DNA of 64,000 bases from Agrobacterium sp. AGB01 (lineage in GTDB: Bacteria > Pseudomonadota > Alphaproteobacteria > Rhizobiales > Rhizobiaceae): the NCBI RefSeq assembly GCF_014851585.1, contig NZ_JACVAB010000009.1, forward strand, positions 124,001 to 188,000, in the 5' to 3' direction. The stretch's first letter is position 1; each line of letters starts with the position of its first letter. The position numbers were made by a program, and so were the translations under genes. This document shows positions 44,751-50,884 of this stretch, piece by piece. The notes under the pieces are model-generated. The model was not told the origin of the DNA. It was given only the letters and a program-made list of their open reading frames with translations, and ran no database searches.

Positions 44751-44949
44751 CGCCTGTCACCCGACCTTGCCCTTGTCACACGGTTGCGAGGGGCAGGGGC
44801 TGGCTGTGCATTCACCACCCAACGCCCTTGTCATAATAATCAATCATGTTATGTAATAACGTAACTTGGTTATCTGTTGGTCCATCCACTGCCCGTACCA
44901 AAGCGCGGCTTGGTAACATTGACAGTGACATTTGAACGTGTAGCTTGTC

Positions 44950-45125
44950 TGCGTCATGGTTCTTCCACTTCTGGGTGGAAGCTAAGAGGGAATTCGGTGC
45001 GAAACCGAAGCTGTCCCGCAACTGTAAGCGGTTAGCCGTTTGTCCAACATGTCACTGGCAGAAATGCCGGGAAGACGGACAACGGCATTGACCCGCAAGC
45101 CAGGAGACCTGCCTGACGAGATACG
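44950..45125 (+). promoter_or_regulatory. Cobalamin (B12) riboswitch
   Basis: Core features are in order: stem GTTCTTCCACTT...GGTGGAAGC, the element AAGAGGGAATTCGGTGCGAAACC, then the B12 box GAAGCTGTCCCGCAACTGTAAGCGG (about 45007-45031, cited in part). Next come a peripheral stem with TGTCACTGGCAGAAATGCCGGGAAG, and the closing AAGCCAGGAGACCTGCC. This matches the adenosylcobalamin aptamer. Bound cobalamin should turn off the downstream genes (45225-49271). A possible CAGGAA/TTCCTG hairpin at 45148-45176 may belong to the switching region. Confidence 0.93.
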
Positions 45126-45224
45126 ATTCCGTGGTCGGGGTGTGCCACAGGAATGAGTGTGTGCGCGGCTTTCCTGCCAGACATGCCTTCATTTTTGCTG
45201 CCTCCTGTATTTGAGATTTTGGCA

Positions 45225-46055
45225 GTGAATGAAGACGTAAAACACCTGATAACCCCACCCATGCGCCCGTCACGGCGCGCCATTCTTCTCATTGCAAAGT
45301 CTGCCTTTGCCGCATCTCCACATCTGGAAATGCAGCGCCTTGCCGAAAAAATGGCTGAACATATTGCTCTGTCACATCCCGGAGACATCGTGCAGTTTGC
45401 CTTTACGGAGCAGGGCACGCCCTCGCTGCGCGAGGGGCTGTTTTCCCTGCTGGAACAGAAGCTTGACTACATCACCATCCTGCCGCTGGTTTTGCCGGTC
45501 GAGCCGAGTTTCCGCAACTGGCTGGTCAAGTCGCTGAAGCGCTGGCGCGCGTCAGCCACCCAGCCATGGCCCGAAATTTCCATCACGGGTGATATTGCCT
45601 CTGCCAGCCAAATGCTGCCGCTGATGAGCGAGCTTCTGGAACAGGCGCAGGCGCAGGCGCTGGAAACCACGCCCGGCAAGGCGGTCGTACAGGAAGGGTC
45701 GCTGGTGCCCGCGCAGAAATACCGCGTTCTCGTCTGTTCCGGCGGTGCCTGCAACAGCGCAGGCGCCGACACGATCTGGAACCACCTTCGCAACCAGCAG
45801 GAACGTTTGAAACTGCGCGTCACCGGTGCTGGCACCATGACGGCCAAATCCACCTGCCTTGGGCCGTGCAATCTGGCACCGGTGCTGCAGGTGTTTCCCG
45901 ATGGCACCTATTACGGCGGCGTGACCGAACAGGCGGTCGATGACATCATTTCAGGGCATCTGCTCGGCAGCCCTGAACTCGGCAACCATGTGGTCGAGAC
46001 CCATGCCTACCACCCAACAGGCCGCAAGCAGCGGCTGCGTATTCCCCAAAACTGA
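45225..46055 (+). CDS. CbiX-like domain fused to a thioredoxin-like [2Fe-2S] domain
   Basis: Start uncertain: in-frame candidates are GTG 45225, ATG 45261 and ATG 45153 (inside the riboswitch leader). About residues 12-140 resemble CbiX/sirohydrochlorin chelatase (RRAILLIAKSAFAASPHLEMQRLAEKMAEHI; YITILPLVLPVEPSF). The usual first His (GHGS) reads AKSA and the second (FLxxGxH) reads LPVEPS, so both metal-binding His seem lost. The C-terminal part is a thioredoxin-like ferredoxin: CSGGACNSAG (C-x4-C) and CLGPCNLAP (C-x3-C), with VFPDGTYYGGVTEQAVDDII. First gene after the B12 riboswitch and 14 bases before the ABC operon. Perhaps a cobalt-handling or electron-transfer protein. Confidence 0.75.
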   Translation: MNEDVKHLITPPMRPSRRAILLIAKSAFAASPHLEMQRLAEKMAEHIALSHPGDIVQFAFTEQGTPSLREGLFSLLEQKLDYITILPLVLPVEPSFRNWLVKSLKRWRASATQPWPEISITGDIASASQMLPLMSELLEQAQAQALETTPGKAVVQEGSLVPAQKYRVLVCSGGACNSAGADTIWNHLRNQQERLKLRVTGAGTMTAKSTCLGPCNLAPVLQVFPDGTYYGGVTEQAVDDIISGHLLGSPELGNHVVETHAYHPTGRKQRLRIPQN

Positions 46056-46069
46056 TCCGAGGAGATAAA

Positions 46070-47566
46070 ATGTCATCCAAATTCCTGTCGCGCCTTGGTG
46101 CGACCTGGTTTGCCACCGCCGTCATGTCCACGGCGGCTGCCTGTTTTGCCGCAGAGCCGCTGCGCGTTGGCGCAACCTACATCACCTCGGGCACCGATCC
46201 GGCCAAGGGTTCCAATGGCTGGGCACTGACTAGCCACGGCGTAGGCGAAAACCTGTTTACCGTTGACCGTGATGGCAAGCTGGTGCCGGAACTGGCTGAC
46301 AAGGCAGAGCGCAATGACGATCTGTCCTGGACAATCACATTGCAGCCCGGCCGCGCCTTTTCAGACGGTTCGCCCGTCACCGCCAAGGCGCTGGCCGCCG
46401 GATTTGACAATACCTTCGCCAACAACAAGGCGGCGCTTGCCACCGGTGGCAAGTTGAGTTTTGCAGCGGTGGATGACCTGACACTCAAGGTCACGACGGA
46501 AAAGCCGGTGCCTTACATTCAGGCGCTGTTTGCCGAATGGCCACTGGTGGCCTACACACCGGCGGCCAATGGTGAAGCGCTGTATACCGGCCCTTACAGC
46601 ATTGCCGCCTTCAAGACAGATGCCTCGATCACCCTTGCACCCAACGCCCATTTTGCCGGTGCAGACAGCCGTTCGCCGGTTGAGTTCCGCAAGTTTGGTG
46701 ACGCGCAAAGCATGACGCTGGCGCTGGAATCCGGTGAACTTGATCTGGCCTTCGGCCTGCCGTCAGAAGTCGTCAGCCGGCTGAAAACCAACCCGGACCT
46801 TACCATCAAGTCTTTCCCGGTCGGGTATCAATATCTGGCATTCCTCAACACAACCCGTCCGCTGCTGGCAGATGTCAAAGTGCGCCAGGCGCTTGATCTG
46901 GCCTTTGACCGCACCGAACTGGCAGCCGCCATCAATGGCGGTGAACCTGCAACCGGCGCTTACGCCGCCTATTTTCCCTTTGCCGGTAAAAATGCCCGCG
47001 TGACCGATCTGGACAAGGCCGCGGCGCTGCTGGAGGAGGCGGGCTGGACCAAGGGTTCCAACGGCAGCCGCGAAAAGGACGGCAAGCCACTGCGCCTGCT
47101 GGCCATTACCTATCCGCAGCGTCCTGACCTCGTGACCATGCTGCCAGTCGTCAAGGCGCAGCTGGCACGGGTCGGCGTGGAGCTTGATACGCAGGTCGTC
47201 GAAAGCATCCAGCAGGTTGCTTCGGCAGGGGATTTCGATATTGCGCTGTGGGCACAACATACCGCACCAAGCGGTGACCCGGCCTTCTTCCTCAACTCGA
47301 TGCTGCGCACCGGCGCGTCGCTCAACTACGCCAAATATGCCTCGCCGGAATTTGACGCCATTCTCGACCGCTTCGCGTCGGAAAGCGAACCGGATGCCCG
47401 CGTCAGCATTGCACTGGATGCGCAGGACAAGCTGTTTGAGGACGTTCCGGCGTCATTCCTTGTCTCACCGGTCTGGTATGTCGGTGTGTCCAAGCGGCTG
47501 GAAAACTATCAGCCCTGGGGTTCGGACTACCACGTGCTGCGCGCCGATATTGGCGAAGCGAAATAG
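46070..47566 (+). CDS. ABC transporter substrate-binding protein (family 5)
   Basis: 498 residues, GAGGAGAT just upstream. The signal peptide ends about ACFA-AEP, then EPLRVGATYITSGTDPAKGSNGWALTSHGVGENLFTVDRDGKLVPELADKAERNDDLSWTITLQPGRAFSDGSPVTA. This is the SBP_bac_5 (DppA/OppA/NikA) fold, with LESGELDLAFGLPSEVV and VRQALDLAFDRTELAAAI typical. Under a B12 riboswitch the ligand is most likely cobalt or nickel chelate, or a corrinoid/cobinamide precursor, rather than a peptide. Periplasmic. Confidence 0.9.
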   Translation: MSSKFLSRLGATWFATAVMSTAAACFAAEPLRVGATYITSGTDPAKGSNGWALTSHGVGENLFTVDRDGKLVPELADKAERNDDLSWTITLQPGRAFSDGSPVTAKALAAGFDNTFANNKAALATGGKLSFAAVDDLTLKVTTEKPVPYIQALFAEWPLVAYTPAANGEALYTGPYSIAAFKTDASITLAPNAHFAGADSRSPVEFRKFGDAQSMTLALESGELDLAFGLPSEVVSRLKTNPDLTIKSFPVGYQYLAFLNTTRPLLADVKVRQALDLAFDRTELAAAINGGEPATGAYAAYFPFAGKNARVTDLDKAAALLEEAGWTKGSNGSREKDGKPLRLLAITYPQRPDLVTMLPVVKAQLARVGVELDTQVVESIQQVASAGDFDIALWAQHTAPSGDPAFFLNSMLRTGASLNYAKYASPEFDAILDRFASESEPDARVSIALDAQDKLFEDVPASFLVSPVWYVGVSKRLENYQPWGSDYHVLRADIGEAK

Positions 47567-47568
47567 AC

Positions 47569-48486
47569 ATGAACCTGATCTGGCCCTGCATCAGATCAGC
47601 CATCGGGCTGGCGGCGATTTCCTTCGCCGCCTTCGCCATTATTTCCACAATGCCGTCTGACCCCGTGGCCATTGCCGTGCATGTCTGGAACCTGCCGGCA
47701 ACAGAGGCAACATTCGCTGCCTTGCGCGCAGAATGGGGGCTGGATCAGCCAATTCCGCTGCGCTACCTGAACTGGCTGCAAGGGTTTGTTGTGGGCGACT
47801 GGGGCCGGTCCTTCCGCACGGGTGAGGCGGTATTTTCCGAGTTTGCCGCGCGTCTGCCGGTCTCGCTGTTCATGGGCCTGTCGGGGCTTTTTCTCGCCAT
47901 GCTACTTGCCGTGCCGCTTGGCTTTTTTGCCGCGGTCAAACCCGGCGGCATTGTCGACAGGTTCAGCCGCAGCCTGTCGGTGTTCGTGCAGGCCGTTCCG
48001 GCCTTCTGGGCCGGACTGGTGCTGTTATGGGTGCTGGGCGTGCAATTGAAGTGGATCAGACCCTTCGCCAACGACACGGCCTCGATCGTCCTGCCCATTT
48101 TGTTGATTGCGCTGCATTCGGTTGCCGTACTGGCGCGGGTCTACCGCCATGATCTCAGGCAAACCGCAACCCTGCCATTTTACGTCACCGCTTTGGCCAA
48201 GGGTCTGTCACCCCGTCAGGCGCTGTGGCGCCACGGCCACCACAGTGCGCTTTACGCGCTGCTGTCAGCGGCTCGCTCCGAGGCCGGTTGGGTCATTGGC
48301 TCCACAGCAACCATGGAAATCCTGTTTGGCCTGCCGGGCATCAGCCAGTTCTTGGTGCAAAGCATTGCCGCACGTGACCAGATGGTGCTGCAGGCCTATG
48401 TCGTGGTCATTGCGCTGTGGATGCTGCTGATGAATGCGACCGCACGCCTTGCCATGGAATATCTCGATCCGCGAGCCCGCCTATGA
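47569..48486 (+). CDS. ABC transporter permease (DppB/NikB type)
   Basis: 305 residues starting 2 bases after the binding-protein stop. Six predicted helices: AISFAAFAIISTMPSD (N-terminal helix), then WLQGFVVGDWGRSFRTGEAVFSEFAARLPVSLFMGL, RPFANDTASIVLPILLIALHS, and an EAA-type loop LARVYRHDLRQTATLPFYVTALAKGLSPRQALWRHG. Typical of the first permease of oligopeptide/nickel systems. Overlaps the next permease gene by 4 bases. Confidence 0.92.
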   Translation: MNLIWPCIRSAIGLAAISFAAFAIISTMPSDPVAIAVHVWNLPATEATFAALRAEWGLDQPIPLRYLNWLQGFVVGDWGRSFRTGEAVFSEFAARLPVSLFMGLSGLFLAMLLAVPLGFFAAVKPGGIVDRFSRSLSVFVQAVPAFWAGLVLLWVLGVQLKWIRPFANDTASIVLPILLIALHSVAVLARVYRHDLRQTATLPFYVTALAKGLSPRQALWRHGHHSALYALLSAARSEAGWVIGSTATMEILFGLPGISQFLVQSIAARDQMVLQAYVVVIALWMLLMNATARLAMEYLDPRARL

Positions 48487-49271
48487 TCCGTTATCTGTTG
48501 CTGGCGCTGATCGCTTTGTTTTTCGTCACCGGTGGCCTCTGGCAACCGCATGATCCGGATGCCGTCAATATTCTGGCCCGCCATGCCAGCGCAAGCAGCC
48601 AGCATATTCTCGGCACCGATCATCTGGGGCGGGATCTGTTTTCGCGCATTCTGGCCGGTGGCTGGAGAACCGGCTGCGTCATCTTTGCCGTCGCCTCCAT
48701 CGGTTTTGTTGTCGGCAGCATTCTTGGCACCACCGCCGCCATTCTGGGCGGCTGGCGTGAAAGCATTCTGCTGCGTGCCTGCGAATTTTTCATCATGGTG
48801 CCAACGCTCATCGTGGCGCTGACTGCCGCCGCATTGTTTGGCCTGTCACCGCTTAGTGCCGGCATGGCATTGGGGCTGGCAGGCATTGGCCCGCATTCGC
48901 TGCTGGCCCATTCGCTCAGCAAACGGGTGCTGGGCCAGCCCTTCATCCTGGCGGCACAAAGCCTTGGCGTCTCACCGGCCAGAATGATAACCTGCCACCT
49001 GCTGCCCAACACATTACCGCTGATGTTGACCTATGTCGGCAATCAGGCCGGCCTTGCCATCGTTGCCTATGCGGCGCTGGCCTTTATCGGCCTTGGCGCA
49101 GACCCATCAAAACCCGACTGGGGCTCCATGCTGTTTGAATATCGCGTCTTCATCTTCGACCATCCAATGTTGATGATCTGGCCGGGCATCGCCATTGCCA
49201 TCACGGTCTCGGTGTTGAACTGGACCTTCGATAATTCCGAAATGGATCAGAAACGCCGCCGCCATATCTGA
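48483..49271 (+). CDS. ABC transporter permease (DppC/NikC type)
   Basis: 262 residues from ATG 48483 (overlap ATGA with the preceding gene). LGTDHLGRDLFSRILAGGWRTGCVIFAVASIGFVVGSILGTTAA is the DppC/NikC signature. The EAA loop is AAQSLGVSPARMITCHLLPNTLPLMLTYVGNQAGLAIVAYAALAFIGLG, ending with NWTFDNSEMDQKRRRHI. The partner of the permease before it. No ATP-binding-protein gene follows; the next gene (49370) is a TetR regulator, so the ATPases must be encoded elsewhere. Confidence 0.92.
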   Translation: MIRYLLLALIALFFVTGGLWQPHDPDAVNILARHASASSQHILGTDHLGRDLFSRILAGGWRTGCVIFAVASIGFVVGSILGTTAAILGGWRESILLRACEFFIMVPTLIVALTAAALFGLSPLSAGMALGLAGIGPHSLLAHSLSKRVLGQPFILAAQSLGVSPARMITCHLLPNTLPLMLTYVGNQAGLAIVAYAALAFIGLGADPSKPDWGSMLFEYRVFIFDHPMLMIWPGIAIAITVSVLNWTFDNSEMDQKRRRHI

Positions 49272-49369
49272 TGCTAACCGAAAAATCGGCCAAAGGTCTT
49301 GCTTGACCGCCCATCATCTGGCGGCTTCAATCCCGGCTCACATCTTGTGTGTTGCAGGGGAATGTCCCA

Positions 49370-49984
49370 ATGAAACCGACCCGTGAACGATTGCTTGCTG
49401 CGGCTGGAAAGCTGTTTCGCGCCGAAGGTATCCGCGCCGTCAGCGTGGACGCGGTGGCGGAAAAAGCAAAGGTCACCAAGCGCACGCTCTATTACCATTT
49501 TCGCAGCAAGGATGACCTGATTGCTGCGCATCTGCAGGCGCAGGATCAGCCGAACCTCGACCTGTTCAAACAGTGGTTCGATGCCGGGCAGGGCGATGTC
49601 GCCGCGCGGGTACAGGGCATTTTCACGCAGCTGGCCAGCACCGCCAGACACCCCAAATGGAAGGGCTGCGGTTTTCTGCGCACCTCGGTAGAGCTGATCA
49701 ATCTGCCCGGCCATCCCGCCATTGTCGCAAGCCGCGCCCACAAAAAGAAGGTCGAGAACTGGCTGCGTATCGAGCTGGAAACCATTCACTCGCCAGCCCA
49801 GGCGCAAGAACTGGCACGTCACATCGTCCTGCTGCTCGACGGTGCCTTTTCCGTGGCGCTGCTGCACCGCGACGCGACCTATCTGGAAAGTGCCGGTGTC
49901 GCCGCCGCACAGCTGATCCGCCACGGCGCCGTAAACCAGTCCAACACCGGGAGTGAGGATTCAAGGGTCCAACAGCCCATGTGA
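49370..49984 (+). CDS. TetR-family transcriptional regulator
   Basis: About 204 residues from ATG 49370 (frame open to 49349). Helix-turn-helix: TRERLLAAAGKLFRAEGIRAVSVDAVAEKAKVTKRTLYYHFRSKDDLIAAHLQAQ, then a helical ligand domain (GIFTQLASTARHPKWKGCGFLRTSVELINLPGHP) of the TetR_C group. The enoyl-CoA hydratase gene begins 87 bases downstream and is a likely target, perhaps in response to an acyl-CoA or aromatic-acid ligand. Confidence 0.9.
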   Translation: MKPTRERLLAAAGKLFRAEGIRAVSVDAVAEKAKVTKRTLYYHFRSKDDLIAAHLQAQDQPNLDLFKQWFDAGQGDVAARVQGIFTQLASTARHPKWKGCGFLRTSVELINLPGHPAIVASRAHKKKVENWLRIELETIHSPAQAQELARHIVLLLDGAFSVALLHRDATYLESAGVAAAQLIRHGAVNQSNTGSEDSRVQQPM

Positions 49985-50071
49985 AGGCCATCCATGTATA
50001 CCGTGCAGTGAATATACATAGCAGTTCACAGGCGGCATGATTTCCTCCAGCCATTGCCCAAGGAGGACGAC

Positions 50072-50884
50072 ATGTCAAACCTGCTACTGTGTGAAATCAG
50101 CGACCATATTGCCACCCTGACGCTGAACCGCCCGGAAAAGCTCAATGCCCTGAACTATCAGCTGATTGATGCGCTGCTGGCAGCGCTTGACCGAATGGAA
50201 ACGGATGATGATGTCAGAGCCATCATCCTGACCGGGGCAGGCGACCGCGCCTTTTCCTCCGGCGGTGACATCCATGAATTCAGCAAGAGCGTGGCGCAGG
50301 GCGTGGAAACCGCCATGCGGGATTTTGTAGCGCGTGGCCAGCGCCTGACCGCGCGGCTGGAAGCGTACCGCAAGCCGATCATCGTTGCAGTCAACGGTCT
50401 TGCCTTTGGCGGCGGCTGCGAAATTACCGAGGCCGCACCCTTTGCCATTGCCAGTGACCGGGCTCTGTTTGCCAAGCCGGAAATCAAACTCGGCATGCCA
50501 CCGACCTTTGGCGGCACACAAAGGCTGTCGCGTCTGGCAGGCCGCAAACGCGCAATGGAACTGCTGTTAACCGGCGACAGCTTCACCCCGCTGCACGCGC
50601 TGGAACTGGGACTGGTCAACCGCGTCGTTGACCATGACCAACTGTTGCCGGTGGCACGGGAATTTGCTGAAACCATCATGCGCCATTCGCCGCTGGCCAT
50701 CTCCGCCATTCTGGCCGCCGTGACGCGTGGCCTTAACCACAGCATTGCCGAGGGCCTGCTGGTCGAGGCAGAACAATTTGCCCGCGTTGCCCCGTCGGAT
50801 GATCTGCGCGAAGGGCTGGATGCATGGATCGCCCGCCGCCCGGCCGTTTACAGCGGCAGATGGCGTGGGCGTCAGCCTGGTTGA
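50072..50884 (+). CDS. Enoyl-CoA hydratase/isomerase-family protein (crotonase)
   Basis: 270 residues from ATG 50072 behind AGGAGG. Crotonase pattern: ISDHIATLTLNRPEKLNALNYQLIDALLAAL, oxyanion loop AGDRAFSSGGDIHEFSK, NGLAFGGGCEITEAAPFAIASDRALFAKPEIKLGMPPTFGGTQRLSRLAGRKRAMELLLTGD. The catalytic Glu positions corresponding to Glu144 (GGCEI) and Glu164 (PEIKLG) are present. Probably hydrates 2-enoyl-CoA in fatty or aromatic acid breakdown. It follows a TetR gene. Confidence 0.92.
   Translation: MSNLLLCEISDHIATLTLNRPEKLNALNYQLIDALLAALDRMETDDDVRAIILTGAGDRAFSSGGDIHEFSKSVAQGVETAMRDFVARGQRLTARLEAYRKPIIVAVNGLAFGGGCEITEAAPFAIASDRALFAKPEIKLGMPPTFGGTQRLSRLAGRKRAMELLLTGDSFTPLHALELGLVNRVVDHDQLLPVAREFAETIMRHSPLAISAILAAVTRGLNHSIAEGLLVEAEQFARVAPSDDLREGLDAWIARRPAVYSGRWRGRQPG

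Follow-up and report, generated by a model that had tools for sequence, protein, structure and literature searches.

The closest described systems each resemble a part of the operon described here. NikABCDE systems under cobalamin (B12) riboswitches have been predicted in Clostridium tetani and Desulfitobacterium hafniense (PMC2667541), and CbtJKL of Sinorhizobium meliloti, whose CbtJ is BtuF-like, is reported to be a cobalt importer under a B12 riboswitch (PMC7689651). ATPase-less importer operons that are powered in trans are described for the heme and siderophore importers IsdF/Hts/Sir of Staphylococcus aureus, which use FhuC (PMC10147376), and for sugar importers, which use MsmK (PMC4519317). 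We analyzed a 64,000-nucleotide stretch of Agrobacterium sp. AGB01 (contig NZ_JACVAB010000009.1, positions 124,001 to 188,000; hereafter the window) in which a B12 riboswitch is followed by genes for a CbiX-like/[2Fe-2S] fusion protein, a NikA-like binding protein, and two ATP-binding cassette (ABC) permeases, here called PermB and PermC. On balance, and with modest confidence, we favor the explanation that this operon encodes a B12-repressed importer of cobalt or a cobalt chelate that would run on a borrowed ATPase, the fusion receiving or reducing the cobalt.

No ABC ATPase was detected in the operon or on its strand over the 14.7 kb that complete the window, and the missing linked ATPase is a general property, not that of one broken operon. 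Our comparison covered 42 loci: 35 non-identical PermB sequences (the window's included), drawn from 47 loci with a PermB of at least 45% identity over at least 85% of its length, and seven remoter ones (36-55%). In the 2 kb after PermC, a tblastn search with 67 ATPase queries found no ABC ATPase on the same strand in any of the 40 loci with enough sequence. The same queries recovered ATPases that an earlier regular expression had missed (e.g., at L247) and were positive in 16/16 control loci with other importers, although these controls were picked since maps already showed an ATPase there and so test reach rather than independent sensitivity. Operon truncation or an assembly gap was ruled out because the ATPase is likewise missing in the 42 loci. 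A B12 box, recognized by pattern, lies ahead of 39 of these 42 importer sets, including that of the window, and the fusion gene precedes the importer in 32. Relatives of PermB at E 1e-80 were found in 10 of 346 genomes at family level and in 8 of 397 at order level, and at E 1e-50 in 8 of 385 at class level (the window genome is counted each time). The importer had no match in any of the six same-genus genomes listed.

The riboswitch was identified by sequence and structure over its full length, scoring 134.3 bits where the gathering score of RF00174 is 31.5, and is the only match at the gathering threshold in the window. Riboswitches of this family allow expression of the mRNA when adenosylcobalamin is scarce. 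Control of the operon by the B12 riboswitch is supported, as judged from sequence. The genes from the fusion through the binding protein and PermB to PermC are spaced by +14, +2, and -4 bases. The conserved part of the fusion begins near 45261, and 45153 is merely the start of the longest frame. A first-pass annotation of this DNA had already reported a full riboswitch, these exact spacings, a TetR gene as the next gene, and the lack of an ATPase, all of which were borne out.

That annotation had also described a family-5 binding protein with DppB/DppC-type permeases. The family assignment stands (PF00496), but the NikA/NikB/NikC group proved closer than the Dpp type. The best NCBIfam models are nickel-binding proteins for the binding protein and nickel permeases for both permeases. 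The nearest solved relatives of the binding protein are NikA of Bacillus halodurans (3t66, E 2e-48) followed by those of S. aureus and E. coli, with the peptide binders OppA (5e-20) and DppA (7e-13) trailing, and its predicted model (mean predicted local distance difference test score, pLDDT, 81) retrieved NikA or NikA-like structures at Foldseek ranks 1-7. In spite of this kinship, the set differs from NikABCDE in having neither NikD nor NikE in the operon, in carrying the fusion, and in two histidines, His56 and His397, at positions that we take to line the NikA metal pocket. His56 is present in 30/30 close sequences and in 9/9 other ATPase-less binding proteins from eight loci. His397 is present in 30/30 and 8/9, respectively, with Asn in the second of the two binding proteins carried by L255 as the exception. 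The aligned residues in NikA of B. halodurans and S. aureus are not His. In the complete systems described below, the binding proteins (3/3 read, of five) have Asn at the first site, Cys at the second, and a CxC motif.

Both permeases retain the loops through which an ATPase would couple, and the PermB loop is conserved above the average of its protein (0.83 vs 0.77). These intact loops favor powering by some ATPase without proving it. With intact loops and no cognate ATPase gene, the set has the make-up of a shared-ATPase importer, but it differs from the S. aureus and MsmK examples in that those belong to other transporter families and have a known partner, where here there are candidate pairs only. 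In the window genome we found 46 matches to PF08352 and at least 29 Opp/Nik-type D-F ATPase pairs, each with both permeases in the surrounding stretch, from PF08352 matches and the strongest NikE-type hits (the best 150 of 281 candidates scored). No unattached pair was present among the matches listed, a negative that leaves out the L178 ATPase, the hit at C17:151535 (184.5 bits), weaker NikE-type hits, and a partial fourth hit at L139. The other three L139 hits were rejected as partners after being identified as PhnC, PhnL, and PhnK, as were two single ATPases at L177, whose best scores are MetN- and NtrCD-like. The first-pass annotation had proposed looking for DppD/DppF-type ATPases under B12 riboswitches elsewhere in the genome; no Dpp/Opp-type ATPase was found within the 9.5-11 kb around each of the six others, one of which leads to a set with its own CbtL-like ATPase. 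Sharing with another complete system is the simplest reading, because no Opp-type ATPase lies near those six riboswitches and all pairs found stand beside permeases; a shared partner is probable for this latter reason. The earlier claim that the ATPases "must" be borrowed is right about their absence and too strong in its verb, as no partner was found.

Among other carriers, one genome (G303) has a D-F pair (L268, 5265-7219) and another (G1087) a fused D-F gene (L265, 1441-3327) without permeases nearby, and L265 is 61-66% identical to L131 of the window genome, which has permeases. We regard these Opp-type ATPases as possible partners and as a lead. A second set of one binding protein and two permeases with no ATPases in the following 2 kb occurs in the window genome (L143, 8653-12016, G000:C17), where it directly follows a LysR-like gene and a full A-B-C-D-F set, and may be another case of ATPase sharing.

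The fusion joins an N-terminal class II chelatase-like domain to a C-terminal thioredoxin-like [2Fe-2S] domain, as seen by Pfam, profile search, and predicted fold (mean pLDDT 91), which upholds the architecture given at first pass. Foldseek matched the model to the CfbA chelatase, with a template modeling (TM) score of up to 0.81 by target length, and to the Aquifex-type ferredoxin. The PF01903 match is thin (22.6 bits against a cut-off of 22; among six relatives tested, three pass and three fall just under), and the CbiX likeness is supported by the profile search and predicted fold as well. Like the thioredoxin-like [2Fe-2S] ferredoxins (Aquifex Fd, NuoE family), the C-terminal domain has the fold and all four ligand cysteines. 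Unlike them, it stands at the end of a fusion and carries, in most relatives, an added conserved tail, AYxPTGRKQxLR. In relation to CbiX, CfbA, and SirB, the N-terminal domain has the fold of a class II chelatase, but the fusion has lost both catalytic histidines. We take the identity of these residues in 3lyh to be that given by the family motif. Neither aligned site holds His in any of 49 fusion sequences. Class II chelatases are described as needing two histidines (PMC7689651), and a working chelatase is therefore unlikely for this protein.

The fusion is also found with importers of other builds. An order-level search matched it in 25 of 297 genomes, in 10 over most of its length and in 12 by the ferredoxin part alone. 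Scanning one genome per species yielded 69 named fusion loci, whose classes were read from the map by eye. In 24 the arrangement is riboswitch-fusion-A-B-C without an ATPase, and a full A-B-C-D-F system comes after the fusion in five (Rhizobium sp. RU36D, Shinella sp. SUS2, Aminobacter sp. AP02, Nitratireductor aestuarii, and a Mesorhizobium metagenome-assembled genome). A CbtJKL-like set takes the importer's place after the fusion in three loci and precedes the fusion in seven. Five loci, all in Aminobacter, have the fusion under a riboswitch box with no recognized importer on its strand, and 21 have other or unresolved arrangements. Two Aminobacter loci (L195 and L213) carry a lone fusion gene under its own B12 box directly downstream of a metH-like gene (by eye), again with no importer recognized on the strand.

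The complete systems are distinct from the importer of the window, with permeases about 28-29% identical to its PermB. The one of the five that was typed is nickel-like: its permease passes the NCBIfam nickel cut-off (352.9 of 350), and its binding protein and ATPase also have nickel models as best family, at 214 and 247 bits, respectively, short of the cut-offs of 600 and 332.6. Between a Rhizobium complete-system locus (L186) and ATPase-less loci (L205 or L117), the riboswitch and fusion DNA is 89-90% identical over 1.09 kb. The similarity stops near the 3' end of the fusion, and there is no other at E 1e-10. Three further locus pairs showed 70-77% DNA identity limited to the riboswitch-fusion part. 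In a tree of 49 fusions (16 ATPase-less, five complete, 28 other), the complete-system label needs three changes, and the well-supported branches force three; the method was quick, and its support is less reliable with long rows such as these. Because the riboswitch-fusion DNA is shared while the importers differ, importers of different build appear to serve one fixed partner, the riboswitch-fusion unit.

From these observations we infer cobalt as the cargo, a shared ATPase, and the job of the fusion. Three points favor cobalt: the kinship with NikA, the replacement of the importer by nickel-like and CbtJKL-like ones at other loci, and the part that CbtJKL plays in S. meliloti. The window set is like CbtJKL in its riboswitch control but is not a member of that family: CbtJKL has a BtuF/FecB-type binding protein, a permease, and its own ATPase, and the CbtJ-like protein of the window genome is a PF01497 protein beside its own ATPase, where the window operon has PF00496 and PF00528 proteins without one. 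In the proposed mechanism, scarcity of adenosylcobalamin would permit expression of the operon mRNA, and in the periplasm the NikA-like protein would bind cobalt, either as the ion or as a small chelate. The channel would consist of PermB and PermC, on whose intact coupling loops an Opp/Nik-type ATPase pair of another complete system could dock to power import. The cytosolic fusion would then take the cargo, its CbiX-fold domain, which lacks the catalytic histidines, serving as a binding or delivery domain, and its [2Fe-2S] domain might pass electrons, for example to free Co(II) from oxidized or chelated cobalt.

Several observations weigh against this explanation. Scores for the binding protein (254.4 bits), PermB (226.7), and PermC (175.6) fall under the NikA, NikB, and NikC equivalog cut-offs of 600, 350, and 300, and other family-5 and peptide-binding structures are close behind NikA in the fold search (E 6e-34 and weaker). 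The PermC loop is conserved slightly below the average of its protein (0.70 vs 0.75). No ATPase partner was singled out among the at least 29 candidate pairs, whose count is subject to the scoring limit given above. A same-strand ATPase does occur within 4.5 kb downstream in 2/40 loci (at 2.9 and 3.6 kb), and the importer is immediately preceded by the end of a complete Opp system in Hoeflea alexandrii and Paracoccus aminophilus, making a local partner possible there; as a general partner such adjacent Opp systems were rejected, being confined to three loci (L116, L187, and L247). The box pattern used found no B12 box in 3/42 ATPase-less loci, and in only one of the three loci with a CbtJKL-like set after the fusion. 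A TonB-receptor/BtuFCD-like set follows the fusion in 4/69 loci and fits corrinoids too. Lastly, the occurrence of B12 synthesis genes, which the first-pass annotation had suggested comparing, does not track the operon. PF02514 (the CobN and Mg-chelatase family) was present in 23/23 genomes, comprising 17 carriers and six same-genus non-carriers, and CbtA in 18/23 (12/17 carriers, Allorhizobium borbori (G461) being without a match, and 6/6 non-carriers). Because both occur in carriers and non-carriers, co-occurrence does not single out cobalt.

Corrinoid uptake is the main rival to the cobalt reading, although we consider it unlikely. In this case the importer would carry a corrinoid or other tetrapyrrole, the CbiX fold would hold the ring, and the [2Fe-2S] domain would reduce its cobalt, in the manner of decyanation or reactivation proteins. 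The fusion model matches CfbA structures holding sirohydrochlorin or uroporphyrin, heme-binding family-5 proteins exist (3tpa), and the TonB/BtuFCD-like neighbors and the lone fusions after metH-like genes would fit this role. However, in sequence the binding protein resembles NikA most closely, the 24 ATPase-less operons have no TonB receptor mapped next to them, and the typed complete system in the same slot is nickel-like. The first-pass suggestion of a link to cobalt or corrinoid uptake is strengthened insofar as Nik-type, CbtJKL-like, or TonB/BtuFCD-like importers are frequent neighbors of fusion relatives, and many of these loci have a B12 box.

We find it improbable that the permeases need no ATPase at all and act as a facilitated or binding-protein-gated channel. 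The lack of a linked ATPase in the 2 kb downstream in all 40 testable loci and of an unattached Opp/Nik pair among those found in the window genome would be expected of such a channel, and Rhizobium rhizoryzae has a B12 riboswitch ahead of a gene for a CbiM-domain protein, a hint that absence of a linked ATPase may extend to other cobalt permeases. The coupling loops are nevertheless kept in the 35 PermB and 34 PermC sequences aligned, and ATPases to share exist, with 8 to 46 PF08352 matches in each of the four carriers examined. A working cobalt chelatase that couples import to insertion into sirohydrochlorin is more improbable still; the Pfam CbiX match just over cut-off and the chelatase fold speak for it, but both catalytic histidines are missing in 49/49 sequences and a cobaltochelatase gene of the CobN family already stands behind a B12 riboswitch in this genome. 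That the operon is a Nik operon in decay, its ATPase genes lost, is hardly credible: those genes are missing, and the binding-protein gene is broken in two relatives (L100/L193, in two frames; L256, by a stop), but the same lack recurs in 42 loci of several alphaproteobacterial families with the proteins, loops, and mostly the riboswitch box conserved.

Table 1. Features of the riboswitch-fusion-importer operon, in window coordinates.
Feature	Position	Strand	Basis
Cobalamin (B12) riboswitch aptamer	44939..45130	+	RF00174, 134.3 bits, E 1.2e-33, model 1-189
CbiX-like / thioredoxin-like [2Fe-2S] ferredoxin fusion, 264 residues (P0001)	45261..46055	+	PF01257 1.1e-11, PF01903 1.4e-4 (longest frame); predicted fold
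Lys13, site of first CbiX catalytic His	45297..45299	+	Alignment to 3lyh; K 27, R 21, G 1, His 0/49
Ser83, site of second CbiX catalytic His	45507..45509	+	Alignment to 3lyh; S 30, G 10, A 5, N 3, T 1, His 0/49
Four [2Fe-2S] ligand cysteines C159, C164, C199, C203	45735..45869	+	Each invariant in 49/49
NikA-like family-5 solute-binding protein, 498 residues	46070..47566	+	PF00496 8.4e-69
His56 of binding protein	46235..46237	+	Invariant in ATPase-less family
His397 of binding protein	47258..47260	+	Near-invariant in ATPase-less family
ABC permease, NikB-like (PermB), 305 residues	47569..48486	+	PF00528 2.9e-26; NCBIfam best Opp2B nickel permease 3.5e-67, under cut-off
PermB coupling (EAA-type) loop	48181..48252	+	TAx(A/S)KG core in 35/35 sequences
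ABC permease, NikC-like (PermC), 262 residues	48483..49271	+	PF00528 5.1e-18; NCBIfam best Opp2C nickel permease 1.2e-51, under cut-off
PermC coupling (EAA-type) loop	48942..49019	+	Axx(L/M/I)G in 33/34 (one Thr for Ala); H(L/V/I)(L/V)P in 34/34

Downstream of the operon on the same strand are a TetR regulator gene (start at 49349 or 49370, end at 49984) and an enoyl-CoA hydratase-like gene. This pair (window 49349-50884) recurs divergently in L041, with 58% and 66% identity. Because the two genes occur together and divergent there, they look like a separate unit and were not counted in the operon.

The six further B12 riboswitches of the window genome lead to DUF1636-cobW-cobN, metE, nrdAB, bluB, cbtA, and a PF01497/CbtK-like/ABC-ATPase set. 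These targets were named through PF07845 (DUF1636), PF02514 (cobN), PF00881 (bluB), PF09490 (cbtA), and 34% identity to a PF02492 protein (cobW), with metE, nrdAB, and the name bluB assigned by eye. The DUF1636 protein (L008, 6184-6636), first in the riboswitch-controlled cobW-cobN operon, has a ferredoxin-like cysteine spacing by eye. In A. borbori, two of eight riboswitches stand in tandem before a TonB-receptor-like gene; the rest lead to the ATPase-less operon, nrdA, bluB, a PF01497-type set, and cob genes, the last with two divergent riboswitches and named partly by eye. The CbiM-domain membrane protein of R. rhizoryzae (PF01891, 59 bits; L280, 769-1449, G493) follows its riboswitch within the 3.2 kb examined. 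Among the ATPase-less loci, two copies of the importer set, each with a riboswitch, lie on one contig of one genome (L110 and L111, G698:C11), and remote relatives occur in other alphaproteobacterial families (L255-L261), with a CobW-like gene beside the set in L257, L260, and L261.

We did not recognize a description of this operon among the matches listed in the literature searched, and a mention in older B12 regulon papers or regulon databases is possible. We tentatively propose, as a claim we would not yet put at even odds, that the riboswitch-fusion unit may be the core of an undescribed cobalt-reception system. In such a system a former chelatase would, driven by its [2Fe-2S] domain, accept or reduce newly imported cobalt, and the unit could be combined with any of at least three importer classes. 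Among these would be a deep alphaproteobacterial Nik-like lineage that would permanently use the ATPases of other transporters.

The finding bears on the present annotation names of the fusion, "(2Fe-2S) ferredoxin domain-containing protein" or "NAD(P)H-dependent oxidoreductase subunit E". Carriers of the operon include root-nodule and soil bacteria (Neorhizobium, Shinella, Aminobacter, and Agrobacterium). We know of no agreed general factor for handling cobalt directly after entry. A reduced S. meliloti strain without cbtJKL, among other genes, is reported to nodulate more poorly without added cobalt (PMC12239276). If the favored explanation is true, the operon would add a class of B12-controlled metal importer in which ATPase sharing is the rule, together with a protein that may take charge of newly imported cobalt.

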